Origin: Desulfuromonas sp. SDB
Lineage (GTDB): Bacteria > SDB-A
Reading direction: 5' to 3'
DNA length: 10,794 bases
Assembly (NCBI GenBank): GCA_001412365.1
Contig: LKUE01000126.1
Span: 1 to 10,794 of the forward strand
Shown: piece after piece, positions 3,036-10,727 of the stretch
Numbering within the stretch: the first letter of the stretch is position 1
Layout of the letters: every line of letters starts with the position of its first letter
Notes under the pieces: generated by a model
Seen by the model: only the letters and a program-made list of their open reading frames with translations
Told to the model about the DNA's origin: nothing
The model's database searches: none
Program-made: the position numbers and the translations under genes

Positions 3036-5396
3036 CTACTTAGTTACAGCTAATTTATATACTGTAGAGCCGTAAGTTGTGGACAATCTCAGGAAATATG
3101 AACCGCTGGTTAATTTTGACCCATCTACATTAACCTGATGAGTACCTGAATTAAACCATCCTTCAGCAATATTCAGCTGTTCTCTTCCCACCAGATCGTA
3201 TAATTTCAAAGAAATATTTCCATCCACAGGGATAGAGAAATTTATCTGGTAGTTATTAATTCCACTGACAGGAGATGCCTGCAATACTAAATTGGAGCTT
3301 AAATTTGTTCCGATTTCTTCGGCAATACCCTGTTGATTACATACCACTGCTCCTACCGGCCAACCGTCATAAAAACCGTAATCACCAAGTTTTTCCCATC
3401 CGCCGGTATTAGTCCAAGCCCAGTCGCTCTTTCCGCTGTAATAAGAACCGGTATTAGCGGGAAAAGGAAAGACTCCGGATTCATAGGTAAATCCTACCAG
3501 CAGCCACATGTCCCCGCTGGCATTGACCGGTACATGATTTGTTCCCAGGTCAAATACATACCATTGGGAGTCGCCGGTCACTGTAAACGACATTTCTACT
3601 AAGGTATCACCGGGATTGGTAGAAGTGCTGTCTCCAAAGATATAGAATTTGGCATCGTTGGCTGGATTATTCCCTGCACCCAGCTGGAATATTATCTGTT
3701 CGATGTACTTGCCGCTGTGAGGACTTAATTCGGTGGGAGTAAATCTGGCTCCCATTCCCATCCATTCCGGGGGATCACCGTAGTTAAACCGGGTCTCCAC
3801 CACTCCCCAATCCCAGTAAGTAACCGTATCGCATGAGCCGGTGGAAGTGGTGTCAATGGTGAAAACTGCATCACTTAAATCATAAATAGAAGAGGGATGA
3901 CTATGATCGCGAACCCTGACCAGACATTGCGAGCTGGGAGTGTTGGGTATGGTCCAGGAGTAAGCATTGCTGCCGGTATTGGAGGTTAATTGAGTCCAGG
4001 TAGAACCATTGTTGGTACTGTAATGTACGTCAAAAGAACTGACATTGTTATCTGTCCAGGAAATGCTGTGAGATGAACCAACATACCAGGTTTCCCCTCC
4101 GTTGGGGGAGGTTACGGTGATGCTGGTATCCGGAGAACCGCCCTGCAAAGCTGCGTAGGCGTTTATTTTACCTGCACCCATCCACCCCTGGTTGTAGTAA
4201 TAACAACTGCTCATGGCATCTGCTGAGTTGTACAAGCGTTGAATAATCTGTGCATTACTCTCTCCGGGAAATTCGCATCTGATCAATGTCACCAATCCGG
4301 CGGTGAGGGGAGTAGACATTGAAGTTCCGTCCATGTACTGATAACTTCCGTAAGGTACGGTGGAGTACATATTTACTCCGGGAGCGGAAATATCAATCCA
4401 GGTTCCATAATTGGAAAAACTGGCTTTTTGGTTGTTGGAGGCAGTTGCCGCTACCGCTACGCAATTGCTGCCGGCGGCAGGATAGTAGGTGGTGGAAGTG
4501 TTGTAATTTCCGGCTGCAGCCAGACAAACTACATCGTAGTTGTTGTAGGCATCGTTGATTGCATTTTGCACTGAAGAATTCGGAGAAGTGCCGCAAGTCC
4601 AGCTCATGGAGATGGCATCGGCACCATTTTGACTGGCAAAGTAAATTCCCTGTACTGCCTCGGATATGTAATATGAACGTACCCCCATTAAACCGATGTT
4701 GAATCCTATGGAAGCAATTCCTATTGAGTTGTTGCTTCTCGCCGCTGCTAAACCTGAGCAATGGGTTCCATGGTTATCTCCGGAACTGGGAGGAGTGGGA
4801 TCATTGTCATTGTCCACATAGTCGTATCCGTTTACATAATTGCCGGTGAGATCAGCATGGTCTTTTTCACATCCGTCATCTACAATTGCGCAAATATGAC
4901 TGTGGTTTCCGGTTTGTATATCCCATGCCTGAGTAGCATTGATATTGGGCAGAAACCATTGAGAACTGTAGTAGGGATCATTAGGGGTTAGCAGGGGCTG
5001 CCAGGGATTGATGGTTATCCGTTCAAATTTTAATTTTAAATCCAACTCGGCATATTCAACCCAGGGACTGGCATTTAACTGGGAAATACTGTTAACTGCA
5101 CTTTGATCGTGGGCGGAGTGAAGTACATAGATCAAGTCGAGCTGGTAATCAACATTCCTGGAATGATCATATTCAGGAATGAGTTGATGATATTGGATAA
5201 AATTGTATTCAGATAAAATTTTATTTAAACCGGGATATGCGGAGACAACTTGATTTCCGGATAAACTCAGAATTTGTTCTCCTCTTAAATCACTTCTGAA
5301 CTTCACAATAACATTACCGGGATTATGTTCAGGAACAGCCAGTAATGCAGAAGTAAGGAAAACAATCAGTAAACCTAGAATTATACTCTTGTTCAT
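3036..5396 (-). CDS. Secreted subtilisin-like serine protease (S8) with Ig-like, jelly-roll-like and C-terminal sorting domains
   Basis: 786 residues from the ATG at 5396, chosen over one 9 codons upstream because GAGGAGG lies 5 bases before it and a standard signal peptide follows (hydrophobic core, cleavage after A-L-L-A, residue ~20). Residues ~25-125 look like a propeptide. The peptidase domain runs from P-N-D-P-Y-Y-S-S-Q-W (~138) to ~415. Its triad is Asp173 (I-V-D-D-G), His209 (N-H-G-T-H-C-S-G) and Ser359 (G-T-S-M-S-T-P), with oxyanion Asn297 (A-A-A-G-N), so it should be active. Residues ~425-515 form an Ig/Fn3-like domain (S-P-N-G-G-E-T-W ... I-S-W-T). Residues ~522-690 are Gly/Trp/Tyr-rich and look like a beta-sandwich. 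The last ~75 residues resemble the type A sorting domain of the type IX secretion system (I-S-L-K-L-Y-D-L-V-G-R-E ... L-T-S-G-S-Y-F-L-R-L ... Y-K-L-A-V-T-K). It is probably exported and surface-linked or released. The substrate is unknown. The gene appears monocistronic. Confidence 0.93.
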   Translation of the reverse strand: MNKSIILGLLIVFLTSALLAVPEHNPGNVIVKFRSDLRGEQILSLSGNQVVSAYPGLNKILSEYNFIQYHQLIPEYDHSRNVDYQLDLIYVLHSAHDQSAVNSISQLNASPWVEYAELDLKLKFERITINPWQPLLTPNDPYYSSQWFLPNINATQAWDIQTGNHSHICAIVDDGCEKDHADLTGNYVNGYDYVDNDNDPTPPSSGDNHGTHCSGLAAARSNNSIGIASIGFNIGLMGVRSYYISEAVQGIYFASQNGADAISMSWTCGTSPNSSVQNAINDAYNNYDVVCLAAAGNYNTSTTYYPAAGSNCVAVAATASNNQKASFSNYGTWIDISAPGVNMYSTVPYGSYQYMDGTSMSTPLTAGLVTLIRCEFPGESNAQIIQRLYNSADAMSSCYYYNQGWMGAGKINAYAALQGGSPDTSITVTSPNGGETWYVGSSHSISWTDNNVSSFDVHYSTNNGSTWTQLTSNTGSNAYSWTIPNTPSSQCLVRVRDHSHPSSIYDLSDAVFTIDTTSTGSCDTVTYWDWGVVETRFNYGDPPEWMGMGARFTPTELSPHSGKYIEQIIFQLGAGNNPANDAKFYIFGDSTSTNPGDTLVEMSFTVTGDSQWYVFDLGTNHVPVNASGDMWLLVGFTYESGVFPFPANTGSYYSGKSDWAWTNTGGWEKLGDYGFYDGWPVGAVVCNQQGIAEEIGTNLSSNLVLQASPVSGINNYQINFSIPVDGNISLKLYDLVGREQLNIAEGWFNSGTHQVNVDGSKLTSGSYFLRLSTTYGSTVYKLAVTK
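3042..3269 (-). other. C-terminal type IX-like sorting module of the protease
   Basis: The last ~75 codons match the general pattern of Por/type A C-terminal domains: an S-P-V-S-G start (where others have N-P-x-N-P), alternating strands, L-Y-D-L-V-G-R-E, a G-T-H-Q-V-N-V-D-G turn, L-x-S-G-x-Y-F-L-R-L, and a short basic-ended final strand. In Bacteroidota this module targets cargo through the type IX secretion system. Whether this organism has that system cannot be seen here. Confidence 0.65.
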
Positions 5397-5477
5397 TTTT
5401 CCTCCTCTGATTGGTTTTACCATTAAAAGATATTTTTCTAGTGTAATTTTCTCATCTAAATAAAATTAAGTGTAAAC

Positions 5478-5573: not shown

Positions 5574-7397
5574 ATGATAATTATGATAAATTTTTCGAAG
5601 CTAATCAGAACTGCTGTTTTTGCCGCAGGGTTAATAGTTATCCAGGTTTTACCAATCCATTCACAGGAGATGAGTTATGATTCTTATGAACATTCTTCTG
5701 AGGATATTTGGCGCCCCCAGTTTTACAGGGCGTTAGGCTATTTACAGGCAGATGAGCAGGATATCCACATCCCCCTATCCTCATCTAATTTCTGGTTATT
5801 AAAGTCTGTGCAGAAAATAATGGATAGCCCTTTATACAGTGTGGATTTTCTGCATTATTATGCCGATCAGTTGAATTCAGGTGATTTACATAAAATAATA
5901 GAAACCTGTATATCAGAATACAACCTTACCGTTGATTATCCACTTCCTGAAGATAATTCACTGCCAGGTATTTTTGTGCTTGCTTCAACTCAACTGGACT
6001 ATTATTCCCAGGAATATTCAGAATCATTATGGAATTATACTCATGATCTGCTCAGGCATGATGATATCCTGGAAGATTTAGACCCCTACCAGGAATATTT
6101 AAATTCCTTAATCTATAAAGACACTGTTGAAATTTTCAAAAAATTAATATCAGAATTCGATATCACCCCTCTGTTTAAATCGGGTTTAATCACTCTATCC
6201 CTGTTATCAGTTGAACTTCCGGACACCCATTTAACCAGCTGCAGTTACAGTGAATGTCCAGTTCTTTATTACCTTCAAACTGACTATGGTCCAGTAATTA
6301 TTGGATCCAGGAGATCAGATTGTTACAAACTATCCCGGGGAATAATTATAGATCTGGGCGGTGATGACTGCTATTATCTCGATCCCAGCATTAAATCAGT
6401 AATTTGTATTATTGACTGCCAGGGAGATGACCGCTACTTTGCACAGCAGGATTTTGCTCCAGCCGGCAGTTTTTTGGGAGTTTCAGTAATAATTGACAGT
6501 TCAGGCAACGATTTATACCGAGGAAATTACATTGCCCTGGGCTCATCTATCCTGGGAATATCCATCCTGCAGGATCTGCAAGGTGATGACATCTACCTGG
6601 GGTCAGTGGGATCATGCGGAGCAGGAGGTTATGGTTTAGGTTTATTAATGGACCATTGCGGTAATGATGTCTATATTTCCCAGGCTAATTCCCAAGGCAT
6701 GGCCGGAGTGTACGGTATAGGAATTCTGTGGGATTCAACCGGGAATGATCAATATTCCTGCACCGGCCTCTATCCTGACCGGTTAAGATTTAACCAGCGG
6801 TATCTTTCCTTCGGTCAGGGATTTTCCATAGGATTTCGTCCGGAATTGCCCGGAGGATTCGGTATTTTAATAGATCAAGGGGGTAATGATAACTATGCTG
6901 CCGATGTATTTGCCCAGGGTGCAGCATACTGGTACGGTTTTGGAGGTATTTTAGAGGGAGGGGGAAATGATATCTACACTGCTTCCCAATACACCCAGGC
7001 TTCCGGAGTGCATCTGGCTGTGGGAACTATTCTGGAAATTGACGGTAATGATCTTTACTACAGCAAATCAGTATCCCAGGGCTGCGGTCATGATTTAGCT
7101 GCAGGTATTTTAATTGATCAGGGAGGTAATGATCAATACCTGGCTCAAGATTTAGCTCAAGGAGCGGGAAATGCCAATTCCTGGAGTATATTCATTGACG
7201 CTGCGGGTAAAGACTTTTATCAAGTACATAATAATTCAAATACCCGGGGATGGTCGGATATCAGAAGGGGCTATAGAGGATCAAGCATTTTCCTGGATTT
7301 GCGGGACCAGGATCAATACATCGGACCAGGTCAAAACAACACCATTATTTTACGGTCTACCTTTGGGGCTTTTATTGACATGGAAGACAGTTTATGA
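5574..7397 (+). CDS. Exported protein made of ~12 tandem 27-residue G-[ND]-D-x-Y repeats, function unknown
   Basis: 607 residues. The start could be ATG 5574 or 5583; neither has a visible ribosome site. After a basic stretch, a hydrophobic segment (about residues 12-27) ending P-I-H-S-Q reads as a Sec signal peptide. Residues ~32-250 are a non-repetitive, Tyr/Asp/Leu-rich and probably helical region with no motif I recognise. From residue 256 to the end the protein is repeats of the pattern h-h-h-D-x-x-G-N-D-x-Y-(x6)-Q-G-(x5)-G-h-G. The G-N-D or G-D-D cores start at residues 263, 284, 311, 337, 363, 390, 437, 464, 491 and 518, followed by degenerate copies at 545 (G-K-D) and 578 (D-Q-D). A regular period with turn-forming G-N-D and alternating hydrophobics suggests a beta-solenoid or similar repeat fold, possibly with Asp-bound calcium. 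This fold is inference. It is the first gene of a coupled operon and its stop overlaps the next start (ATGA). Confidence 0.88.
   Translation: MIIMINFSKLIRTAVFAAGLIVIQVLPIHSQEMSYDSYEHSSEDIWRPQFYRALGYLQADEQDIHIPLSSSNFWLLKSVQKIMDSPLYSVDFLHYYADQLNSGDLHKIIETCISEYNLTVDYPLPEDNSLPGIFVLASTQLDYYSQEYSESLWNYTHDLLRHDDILEDLDPYQEYLNSLIYKDTVEIFKKLISEFDITPLFKSGLITLSLLSVELPDTHLTSCSYSECPVLYYLQTDYGPVIIGSRRSDCYKLSRGIIIDLGGDDCYYLDPSIKSVICIIDCQGDDRYFAQQDFAPAGSFLGVSVIIDSSGNDLYRGNYIALGSSILGISILQDLQGDDIYLGSVGSCGAGGYGLGLLMDHCGNDVYISQANSQGMAGVYGIGILWDSTGNDQYSCTGLYPDRLRFNQRYLSFGQGFSIGFRPELPGGFGILIDQGGNDNYAADVFAQGAAYWYGFGGILEGGGNDIYTASQYTQASGVHLAVGTILEIDGNDLYYSKSVSQGCGHDLAAGILIDQGGNDQYLAQDLAQGAGNANSWSIFIDAAGKDFYQVHNNSNTRGWSDIRRGYRGSSIFLDLRDQDQYIGPGQNNTIILRSTFGAFIDMEDSL
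6339..7394 (+). repeat. In-gene tandem repeat array, unit 81 bases (27 codons)
   Basis: The repeats are clear at protein level and mostly diverged at DNA level. Starting at I-L-Q-D (residue 331), unit starts fall at 331, 357, 384, 431, 458, 485, 512, 539, 572 and 599. Most spacings are 26-27 residues; one unit is 47 and one is 33. Two units remain nearly identical in DNA: 6861-6890 and 7104-7133 match at 27 of 30 bases and are 243 bases apart, exactly three units. The final unit is cut short at A-F-I-D-M-E-D-S. Confidence 0.9.
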
Positions 7398-8311
7398 TCA
7401 CTATACTTCTCTTTCTGTTGTTGTCAGGTAGTCCCCCGGAATTATCTTATTTGGACAGCTTGTTTATCAGAGCATCGGTGGGAAGAATTGATTATCTTGA
7501 GCTAAATGAACCAGCCAGAGAATCTCTGGCAAATTTTCCGGAAGACAGTATCGGCAGATATTTAATAAATAAATTTTCAGGATGTTCCGCCAGGGAATTC
7601 CACAGTTTGGTGGAAATATTTAAAAAAATGGAGACCAGGGGCAGAACCAGTTTAGTTCAAGGCTTACATTCAGAAGATATGGATATCAAGCTTGCTTCTA
7701 TCTATACTGCCGGGGAGATTAAAGATACCTTTTTAATTTCACAATGTATTTCTCTGGTAAATGACAGCAATTACCAAGTTAGAGCAAATATTGCCCGGAT
7801 ATTGTACATCCTCGATGATTCCCTGGCTTTATACAATTTGATCAAACTGGTAAATGATTCAGTATTCACAGTTAAATTATATGCTTTAATTTCACTGGCA
7901 AAAATCGGCATTCCCCTGGACTGCCAATTACCTTGGTTCATTCACTGTATTGAAGATTCCAATGTGGTAGTTAGAGCGACTATGGCTGAAATAATTTCAA
8001 AATTAAACCAGGAGGGCATAGATCAGATTATTCAGCTATATCCGAATCTTGATTCCATTTCAAAATTATCAGTGATCTGCGGATTAGCTTCAAATCCGTT
8101 GCAGTGTTCCCAGAACTTCATTCAAGACAGTCTGGAAAGTTTTGATCCCTATCAACGGGCAGCTGTTTACCAAAGCTGGTTTAACCTATCTGCAGAAAGT
8201 ATTGACTCCTCAAGGATAGTACTACCATCCTGGAATAAAATACTTCAGCAAGAATCGTATCCGCCATTAAAAAATTATTTACAGTACATAATTGACCAGG
8301 AATCCCTGTGA
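7394..8311 (+). CDS. Short exported HEAT-repeat protein, function unknown
   Basis: 305 residues. The start ATG shares ATGA with the stop of the repeat-protein gene, implying coupled translation. The N-terminus (M-I-T-I-L-L-F-L-L-L-S-G-S) is a very short hydrophobic signal-like stretch lacking a basic residue, so export is likely but not certain. Residues ~85-205 contain at least four HEAT-like helical hairpins with aligned second helices: L-H-S-E-D-M-D-I-K-L-A (91), L-V-N-D-S-N-Y-Q-V-R-A (121), L-V-N-D-S-V-F-T-V-K-L (152) and C-I-E-D-S-N-V-V-V-R-A (185), spaced 30-33 residues. The rest is also helical in character. HEAT arrays are protein-binding scaffolds with no catalysis of their own. Its fixed place between the 27-residue-repeat protein and two enzymes suggests that it works with the former. 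No specific function can be named. Confidence 0.85.
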   Translation: MITILLFLLLSGSPPELSYLDSLFIRASVGRIDYLELNEPARESLANFPEDSIGRYLINKFSGCSAREFHSLVEIFKKMETRGRTSLVQGLHSEDMDIKLASIYTAGEIKDTFLISQCISLVNDSNYQVRANIARILYILDDSLALYNLIKLVNDSVFTVKLYALISLAKIGIPLDCQLPWFIHCIEDSNVVVRATMAEIISKLNQEGIDQIIQLYPNLDSISKLSVICGLASNPLQCSQNFIQDSLESFDPYQRAAVYQSWFNLSAESIDSSRIVLPSWNKILQQESYPPLKNYLQYIIDQESL

Positions 8312-9816
8312 TCTTTGATTTACTCATTAAAAATGCGATAATATTTCCTGAATCTGAATTAAAGGACATATATATAAAATCCGGAAAATTTGATCAAATA
8401 GAACCATCGGGGAAAAAAACCAGCTATCCTGCCTTATCCATACTGAACCTCCGGGAAAAAACGTTAATTCCAGCATTTACTGATGCCCATACCCATTTTT
8501 TTCAATGGTCCCTGGGAAGAATCCAGGTTTCTCTTGAACAAGTTGAAAGTTATGATGATGCCTTGAATAAAATTTCCGCTTATCTCAGTTTGAACCCGGA
8601 TACACCGGCAGTTATCGCCACTGATTTTGATCAGTACAGATGGATTAAACCAATTCTGCCCAGTAAAAAGGATCTAGATAAAATATCCACCAGTTGTCCC
8701 ATTGTGATGAGAAGAATATGCGGTCATCTTGCCGTTTTTAACTCCCCTGCCCTCAAAAAAATTGAAAACCTGGTAGATAAAAGATTTATTGATTTTAAAG
8801 AGGGGATAGTGGTGGAAGATCCAGTGTTAAAAATTTACAATTACTTTCCCCCATCACCAGAGATGATCAATCAAGCATTGCAGTCAGCTCAGCAGGAATG
8901 TTTCCGGCAGGGTATTTCAGCAGTAGGTGAAATAACTTCATCTTTGGGGAGAAAAATAATAGCCAGGGCTAGTCATCAACATCAACTTAAAGTAAAATTT
9001 AGATTATCGGTTAACCAGCAGGATTTTAAAAACTTGCAGCAGGGGGGCTTTTACCCCAGTTTAGGAGATGATCCGGTCTCGCTGAGAGCGTTGAAGATTT
9101 TTCTGGACGGATCCATCGGAGGGAAAACTGCTGCAGTCAGTTTTGTCTATAAGGATGCGCCTGCCTCAGCTAGACGGGGAATTTTGCTTATGGAGCAGAA
9201 TGAGTTAGGTGAATTATTGAAATCTGCTCTAAACGATCATTGGAAAATTTGGATTCACGCAATTGGAGACAGGGCGATAGATTTAATATTATCCTCAGCT
9301 AAAAAATTACATTTAAAAAATACTGAGAATATCCGCATTGAACATTTTGAATTGCCTTCTCCGGAGGCAATTGACCAAGTTGCAGACATGGGCATTCAGC
9401 TTTGTGTACAACCAAATTTCATCAACAACTGGTCATTTCCCGGACAGCTATATCAACAGGTCCTCCCTGATGAAATATACAGGTTTAACAATCCCCTTAA
9501 AGAAATATTAAACCGGAAATGCAATTTTTGTTTTGGCAGCGACAATATGCCCGTCAATCCATTTTACGGCATCCAGGGTACCGTAAATTCCCCCCTTCCC
9601 GTCCAGCGACTCAGTTTAACCGAGGCAATCAAACGTTATACTTTTCATTCAGCCAGATGTCTGGGGGATACTAACCGGGGTAAAATTATTCCTGGATTTC
9701 AAGCAGATATTGCGGTATTAAACCAATTTCCTGATGAAAACAATTTACTGCAAATTGAAGTTGAACAGATGTATATTGACGGGGAGAAAGTTTATGACCC
9801 TTATGGAGAAAGCTGA
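8308..9816 (+). CDS. YtcJ-like metal-dependent amidohydrolase (amidohydrolase 3 family)
   Basis: 502 residues starting at GTG 8308, which overlaps the previous stop as GTGA. No signal peptide, so cytoplasmic. It has the full layout of the YtcJ/NfdA branch of the amidohydrolase superfamily: a small beta-sandwich at both ends (1-55 and ~455-502, with G-x-I-x-P-G-F-x-A-D-I-A-V-L) around a TIM barrel. Metal-site candidates are His61 and His63 (D-A-H-T-H), Lys263 in A-L-K-I-F-L-D-G-S-I-G-G, His317 (H-A-I-G-D-R-A), His346 (R-I-E-H-F-E) and Asp412 (F-G-S-D-N-M-P-V). All key positions are present, so activity is expected. Known relatives hydrolyse N-substituted formamides, amides or cyclic ureides, and most have no known substrate, so none can be assigned here. 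Its pairing with a ROK kinase, one base apart in reading, hints at a carbohydrate-derived or amino-sugar substrate; this is inference. Confidence 0.92.
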   Translation: MIFDLLIKNAIIFPESELKDIYIKSGKFDQIEPSGKKTSYPALSILNLREKTLIPAFTDAHTHFFQWSLGRIQVSLEQVESYDDALNKISAYLSLNPDTPAVIATDFDQYRWIKPILPSKKDLDKISTSCPIVMRRICGHLAVFNSPALKKIENLVDKRFIDFKEGIVVEDPVLKIYNYFPPSPEMINQALQSAQQECFRQGISAVGEITSSLGRKIIARASHQHQLKVKFRLSVNQQDFKNLQQGGFYPSLGDDPVSLRALKIFLDGSIGGKTAAVSFVYKDAPASARRGILLMEQNELGELLKSALNDHWKIWIHAIGDRAIDLILSSAKKLHLKNTENIRIEHFELPSPEAIDQVADMGIQLCVQPNFINNWSFPGQLYQQVLPDEIYRFNNPLKEILNRKCNFCFGSDNMPVNPFYGIQGTVNSPLPVQRLSLTEAIKRYTFHSARCLGDTNRGKIIPGFQADIAVLNQFPDENNLLQIEVEQMYIDGEKVYDPYGES

Positions 9817-10727
9817 TGTCAATTTTAGCTTTAGATTTTGGGGGAACCAAAATCAAATACGGGCTGATTGAAAAGGATTATCTCCAATTTCAGGATAATT
9901 CCATAACCACTCCCTCCGGAGGACAATTCAGCCAAACGGTGGAAGCTCTGGATGAATTATTTCAGAAATTTTCTGAGGTTAAAGCAGTGGGAATTGGTTT
10001 TCCGGGGATAGTGGATTTTAAAAAACAAACTGTGAGATTTTCTCCAAATACCAGTGAATGGGAAGGAAAGAATATCAGCAGGGTACTCCGGGAAAAGTGG
10101 AATGTTCCGGTAGTGGTAGACAATGATGCCAATCTGTTCACCTATGCGGAAAGTAAAATTGGAGCTGGGCAAAAATGCTCCCATGTTTTGGGAATTACCC
10201 TGGGAACTGGAGTTGGTTCAGGAGTAGTAATAAATAATGAAATATACCGGGGGGTTAATGGAGCAGCCGGTGAATTAGGTCATACCGTTGTTGTTCCCGA
10301 AGGTCCGCTATGTTCCTGCGGGCGGAGGGGCTGTTTGGAGAGTTTAGTGGGGAAAAAAGCGATGCAGAGAGATTTAGCTGGATATATACAGCAGGGGATT
10401 GCCACCTCCTGTTCAAAATCCTGTAGTCCTGAGGAAATATACAATCAGGGATTAAAAGGGGATCTGGTTGCCCTGGAAATATTCAGAAAATTGAGCATTT
10501 ACCTGGGAATAGCCCTGGCTAATGCAGTAAATTTCTTTGATTTCGACGGGATTGTTCTGGGAGGAGGAATATCCTCAGCTTACCGCTTATTTATTGAAGA
10601 TTTAAAATTCCATTTCAAGCATCATTTAATCAACTTCTCCCAGCGACAGATAAAAATTTATCCTTCCCAGTTGAAATCCCGGGCAGCACTTATCGGTGCT
10701 GGATTACTTGCTGAAAAACTTCGGTAG
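9816..10727 (+). CDS. ROK-family sugar kinase (glucokinase-like)
   Basis: 303 residues, the normal length for a single-domain ROK kinase; no N-terminal DNA-binding domain, so an enzyme rather than a ROK repressor. The start ATG shares one base with the preceding stop (TGATG), and GGAG lies 7 bases upstream. Features in order: the ATP phosphate-binding D-F-G-G-T-K (7-12); G-I-G-F-P-G (59-64); catalytic Asp104 in V-D-N-D-A-N; the second phosphate loop G-I-T-L-G-T-G-V-G-S-G (126-136); sugar-binding E-L-G-H (153-156); the zinc motif His156 with Cys166, Cys168 and Cys173 (C-S-C-G-R-R-G-C-L-E); and the adenosine-site G-G-G (249-251). It should phosphorylate a hexose such as glucose, N-acetylglucosamine, N-acetylmannosamine or allose with ATP in the cytoplasm. 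Sequence alone does not fix the sugar. As the last clear gene in the operon it may handle a sugar released by its neighbours. Confidence 0.94.
   Translation: MSILALDFGGTKIKYGLIEKDYLQFQDNSITTPSGGQFSQTVEALDELFQKFSEVKAVGIGFPGIVDFKKQTVRFSPNTSEWEGKNISRVLREKWNVPVVVDNDANLFTYAESKIGAGQKCSHVLGITLGTGVGSGVVINNEIYRGVNGAAGELGHTVVVPEGPLCSCGRRGCLESLVGKKAMQRDLAGYIQQGIATSCSKSCSPEEIYNQGLKGDLVALEIFRKLSIYLGIALANAVNFFDFDGIVLGGGISSAYRLFIEDLKFHFKHHLINFSQRQIKIYPSQLKSRAALIGAGLLAEKLR

Follow-up and report, generated by a model that had tools for sequence, protein, structure and literature searches.

The gene at 5574–7397 on the forward strand of the window (the whole 10,794-nt stretch of DNA analysed) encodes a 607-aa protein that carries an array of 27-residue repeats. 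The preferred reading, held at a probability of about 0.6, is that this is an exported, probably Ca2+-stabilised solenoid of 12 coils, which has one binding or catalytic site and works with a HEAT-repeat partner. The repeat domain belongs to an ordered family with a fixed set of 12 coils, which is widespread in bacteria and carries no annotation.

The protein begins with a hydrophobic stretch (residues 1–31; 5574–5666, forward strand), modelled by AlphaFold2 as a helix at 2–24 with low confidence at 27–36. This stretch is consistent with a signal peptide, and the protein is probably exported. It is followed by a helical domain (about residues 36–215; 5679–6218, forward strand) that is conserved in the family: in 83 sequences, D at position 63 and P at position 86 were conserved, and position 65 was R in most homologues. 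Pfam scans of 22 and 58 family members found extra domains of PDZ, PQQ-type propeller or beta-helix type in homologues. Such domains are frequent in exported or periplasmic proteins.

The repeat array covers 6339–7394 (residues 256–607). The initial annotation had counted about twelve units with a G-[ND]-D-x-Y core, and 12 units were located whose core reads D-x-x-G-[ND]-D-x-Y, with the motif glycine at residues 263, 284, 311, 337, 363, 390, 437, 464, 491, 518, 545, and 578. A degenerate extra unit has its motif glycine at residue 247. The exact motif G[ND]DxY was found in 10 units, whereas 20,000 composition-preserving shuffles averaged 0.06 and never exceeded 2. The BLOSUM62 autocorrelation of the protein peaked at lag 27 (0.16); the best value among 300 shuffles, at any lag, was −0.39. 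The tandem 27-residue repeat was therefore confirmed. Its spacing had been called nearly constant at 26–27 residues, which was true for 8 of the 11 intervals between motif glycines; the other three were 21, 47, and 33 residues, and the last two are kept in homologues, at the same places in homologue L105. In the 47-residue interval, a conserved insertion lies between coils 6 and 7 (residues 398–423; 6765–6842, forward strand) and ends with G-x-R-P, including R422.

Pfam, NCBIfam, PHROGs, PADLOC, and PDB sequences were searched with the protein, with a profile of 22 sequences, and with a profile of a single unit, and none yielded a credible match for the repeat domain. The earlier statement that the repeat could not be assigned to a named family thus holds at the sequence level, and the profile search suggested with it returned no confident match to a characterised repeat family. 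No relevant work on the repeat motif or on the solenoid–HEAT pair was found in the literature. The Knotted Solenoid of Brevundimonas (PMC13123833) was rejected as a relative: it has a different fold, and its nearest kin are pentapeptide repeats. A phage or plasmid origin of the gene was rejected, as tblastn gave no match to the protein in phages or plasmids. The solenoid model had no significant match in a viral structure library.

AlphaFold2 modelling of the window protein with 83 sequences gave a pLDDT of 91.3 and a pTM of 0.90. The model showed helices at 43–212, followed by a regular beta-solenoid at 232–603 (6267–7382, forward strand) with the unit D-x-x-G-[ND]-D-x-Y-x6-Q-G. The domain of homologue L105 (42% identical), folded from an alignment that had no sequence in common with the first, was also predicted as a beta-solenoid (pLDDT 95.7, pTM 0.93). 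On these models, the last 370 residues would be wound into a rod with a constant set of 12 beta-solenoid coils. For residues 256–607, for which the initial annotation had suggested structure prediction, the predicted fold was a repeat fold and not a non-repeat one.

Structural re-alignment placed 3p4g, region IV of the Marinomonas primoryensis ice adhesin MpAFP, first for both models: Z 20.6 for the window model (rmsd 3.3 Å, 267 aligned; next row Z 11.9) and Z 22.7 for the L105 model (rmsd 3.0 Å, 261 aligned; next row Z 16.2). Its lead over the next PDB row was 6–9 Z units, and the likeness comes from this second aligner and not from Foldseek, which alone gave no significant match in the PDB for either model (E 0.25 at best). 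The other structural matches included an SRRP adhesin, tapirin, the RsaA S-layer protein, and Ag43, together with 1rmg (Z 7.6) and 1hg8 (Z 9.3). Two models from disjoint alignments and a beta-helix as the best PDB match both point to the solenoid that had been proposed from the sequence. As modelled, the family would be a variant of the Ca2+-type beta-solenoid and not a wholly new kind of fold.

MpAFP region IV is a Ca2+-bound right-handed beta-helix with thirteen repeats of consensus xGTGNDxuxuGGxuxGxux (PMC3492233). It matched both models across the whole solenoid and has in common with it one GND-containing turn per coil and about a dozen coils. However, MpAFP region IV is part of a giant adhesin and has 19-residue coils (repeat 19–21 residues) and a Thr/Asx ice-binding face, whereas the window protein has 26–27-residue coils fixed at 12, no Thr array, a coil-specific Y/W/H/D/R site, a putative N-terminal hydrophobic export signal, and a HEAT partner. 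Beyond GND, the MpAFP consensus was absent from the solenoid, and there was no sequence match. Thr reached at most 16% of any unit position (offset +3, 581 units). Ice binding, suggested by the MpAFP match, was rejected given the missing Thr array.

Two other groups of known proteins are similar in part. RTX/HemolysinCabind beta-rolls (PF00353) resemble the solenoid in the Gly-Asx-Asp turn, in probable export, and in likely Ca2+ binding. With a threshold of E 1, the PF00353 profile did not match the window protein, and it was missing from the families matched by 22 homologues at 0.01 and by 58 at 0.001; the RTX nonapeptide GGxGxDxUx was absent, and the solenoid has one turn motif per 26–27 residues. 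RTX-style type I secretion works without an N-terminal signal; in the window protein, the hydrophobic N-terminal stretch would rather point to Sec export. The beta-solenoid architecture is also that of right-handed parallel beta-helix proteins (pectate-lyase-like, PF13229 Beta_helix, NosD), and beta-helix profiles match some homologues, in L010 through a region added at the N-terminus. However, these profiles do not match the repeat domain of the window protein, and the structural scores are lower (Z 7–9).

The turn itself is nearly the same in every coil. The second alignment comprised 64 sequences and had no member in common with the set behind the first model. In it, the core positions D (−3), G (0), D (+2), and Y (+4) were alike in all 12 coils (coil-specific information 0.04–0.10 bit), and D at offset +2 was present in 95–100% in each coil. 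Each coil would turn at D-x-x-G-[ND]-D-x-Y. By analogy with MpAFP region IV, the stacked Asp/Asn of successive turns would most probably coordinate Ca2+ ions in a row, and this row would let the rod fold outside the cytoplasm. Ca2+ thus probably stabilises the solenoid. Of the calcium-binding Asp ladder proposed in the initial annotation, the near-invariant D at −3 and +2 is present in all coils and the nearest fold is Ca2+-bound, while the metal is suggested by analogy.

Two explanations bear on the fold and on the metal. AlphaFold2 over-predicts confident beta-solenoids for perfect repeats (PMC11795689), and the solenoid might be an artefact of this kind, the true fold being different. This bias is a minor risk here because the units are divergent (about 28% alike) and the alignments are deep. 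The agreement of two independent models, and the match of a solved Ca2+ beta-helix to both at Z above 20, also argue against an artefact, which is considered very improbable. The other explanation accepts the coils but removes the metal: Asn/Asp hydrogen bonding together with stacked Tyr would hold the DxxG[ND]DxY turns in place, the arrangement found in beta-helices free of metal. Pectinase-type helices, which are not known to have such a metal ladder, are indeed among the PDB matches (e.g., 1rmg and 1hg8). However, two near-invariant Asp per coil would then leave uncompensated charge columns, and the closest fold, MpAFP region IV, has both the GND turn and bound Ca2+. A metal-free ladder is therefore judged unlikely, though far less so than an artefact, and a Ca2+-stabilised rod is preferred.

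The solenoid domain was present in 67 of the 386 genomes of a spread sample, a rate that depends on how relatives were chosen for the sample and is indicative only; most matches covered the whole profile. A scan of named genomes, with a closer subset of the alignment as query, revealed 340 relatives, the best 80 of which were in Zixibacteria, Eisenbacteria, Stahlbacteria/WOR-3, TA06, and Calditrichota. Some genomes have several copies, with eight domain matches in one (G375) and five in another (G305). The genome of the window has one paralogue, L002 (contig C419, 410–2563), without a HEAT partner. The stop of L002 overlaps the start of a gene that, by its sequence, would encode an adenylate/guanylate cyclase containing an ATPase region. 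A conserved domain that is absent from Pfam, NCBIfam, PHROGs, and the PDB represents a substantial annotation gap in uncultured lineages, here Zixibacteria, Eisenbacteria, Stahlbacteria/WOR-3, and Calditrichota.

Identity between units was 36% when the same coil position was compared across proteins and 28% within a single protein. The order of the 12 coils thus predates the spread of the family, and the repeat is not freely expanding. A freely expanding tandem repeat was accordingly ruled out by the fixed number and order of the coils.

In contrast to the generic core, coil-specific information (same 64 sequences) was highest at unit offsets −11 (1.67 bits) and −12 (1.45 bits). The residues there were Y (95%)/W (86%) in coil 8, H (97%) in coil 9, and H (77%)/D (97%) in coil 10, corresponding in the window protein to Y452–W453, H480, and H506–D507. 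Conservation in 58 diverse sequences was 98% for H480, D507, Q415, and Q374, 97% for R422, and lower for Y473 (91%) and N535 (76%). The conserved coil-specific positions Q415, R422, Q448, Y452, W453, Y473, Q475, H480, H506, D507, and N535 lie within 6816–7178 on the forward strand. With a coil spacing of 27 residues, the conserved Y/W/H/D positions should stack side by side, as judged from the register and not from coordinates. A generic core in all coils, combined with coil-specific residues at one azimuth, was read as one ligand or active site. Residues of coils 7–11 (Y452–W453, H480, H506–D507, R422, Y473, and N535) would form this site, which looks like a candidate for ligand binding or catalysis. 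Its putative ligand is most plausibly a polymer of the cell surface or the extracellular space, for example a polysaccharide, as suggested by residue types only.

These residues could also be explained without a ligand, or by a more specific function. The protein may be a purely structural or adhesive surface rod, comparable to RTX adhesins and S-layer proteins, in which the coil-specific residues serve packing or capping. Its best structural matches are surface proteins (MpAFP region IV, the SRRP adhesin, tapirin, RsaA, and Ag43), and Gly, Tyr, and Trp can serve structure. However, the number and order of the coils are fixed across divergent lineages, unlike those of length-varying adhesive rods, and conservation of H480 (98%), D507 (98%), and R422 (97%) is confined to particular coils, which makes a mere rod rather doubtful, if slightly less so than a metal-free ladder. 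Within the preferred reading of one site, a narrower version takes the protein specifically for an enzyme: a polysaccharide lyase or epimerase of the beta-helix type whose catalytic residues would be the His/Asp/Tyr/Arg cluster. R422, Y452, Y473, H480, H506, and D507 lie on consecutive coils, and Arg, Tyr, His, and Asp are residue types used by beta-helix lyases and epimerases. Against this, no lyase or epimerase was matched by sequence, or by fold above the beta-helix background (1rmg and 1hg8, with the scores given above), so that an enzyme is possible but somewhat improbable, a little ahead of the mere rod. For the preferred reading, the generic Ca2+-type scaffold is separable from the coil-specific site, and direct tests with named residues and a named partner are possible.

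The partner gene at 7394–8311 on the forward strand overlaps the stop of the solenoid gene by 4 bp at its start. Its product matched Pfam HEAT_2 (PF13646) with 42.5 bits (curated cutoff 27.7, E 8e-11), and 78 of the 86 downstream genes of the aligned set also matched. The downstream products have hydrophobic N-termini and are predicted to be exported. Of 162 loci, 123 had HEAT repeats either next to the solenoid or fused to it (97 as a separate next gene and 26 as a C-terminal fusion), while among 347 other ORFs from these loci the HEAT profile matched 2. A maximum-likelihood tree built from 96 domains required 8 changes to explain the distribution of fusions, and well-supported branches forced at least 4 of these. 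This repeated fusion or fission of solenoid and HEAT is good evidence of joint action. The HEAT partner is not obligatory for the solenoid protein: it was not found in about a quarter of the loci, some of which end early, including a well-supported clade of 12 that contains L002. The partner is a member of the HEAT/PBS-lyase HEAT-like proteins (PF13646, PF03130), but differs from them in its predicted export, its pairing with an uncharacterised solenoid, and a context other than that of a phycobilin lyase. An exported HEAT-repeat protein paired with a solenoid is an unusual arrangement.

The helical N-domain, the solenoid, and the co-encoded HEAT protein may form one exported complex, with the HEAT protein as scaffold or adaptor; the physical complex is suggested by the gene pairing. 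Most likely, it would recognise or modify a polymer outside the cell or in its envelope. In its full form, a widespread unnamed two-component exported system in which a Ca2+-dependent 12-coil solenoid with a single His/Asp/Tyr/Trp/Arg active site on consecutive coils acts in complex with an exported HEAT-repeat protein, the proposal is tentative and more probably wrong than right, although it is given somewhat more weight than an enzyme specifically. If true, the solenoid would define a new class of enzyme or lectin, and the system would be present in about one in six of the sampled bacterial genomes.

Other genes were observed around the solenoid gene. Of the 80 named loci L025–L104, 26 had type IV pilin-like genes (called by Pfam N_methyl on one tested example) no more than a few genes upstream, and 26 had a sigma-54 response regulator there. 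This linkage is mostly seen in Zixibacteria and relatives and may reflect shared synteny. In the same loci, an RNase_H_2 superfamily protein was second or third downstream in 43, and an HDOD protein was second to fourth downstream in 37. In the window, a subtilase gene with a weak Por-type C-terminal tail match (3036–5423, reverse strand) is divergently adjacent to the solenoid gene, a position kept in two relatives of the same family (60–63% identity). Amidohydrolase and ROK kinase genes follow the HEAT gene (8308–10727, forward strand) with overlapping starts and stops; the amidohydrolase (Amidohydro_3, 8308–9816) is the third gene of this cluster, and its linkage is kept in the window's own family, as seen in G001–G003. 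At 98–1012 and 1776–2949 on the reverse strand, the window also has genes for an FGE-sulfatase-domain protein with a lipoprotein-like N-terminus, a DNA polymerase III delta subunit (weak Pfam match), and a tRNA-Pro (CGG).
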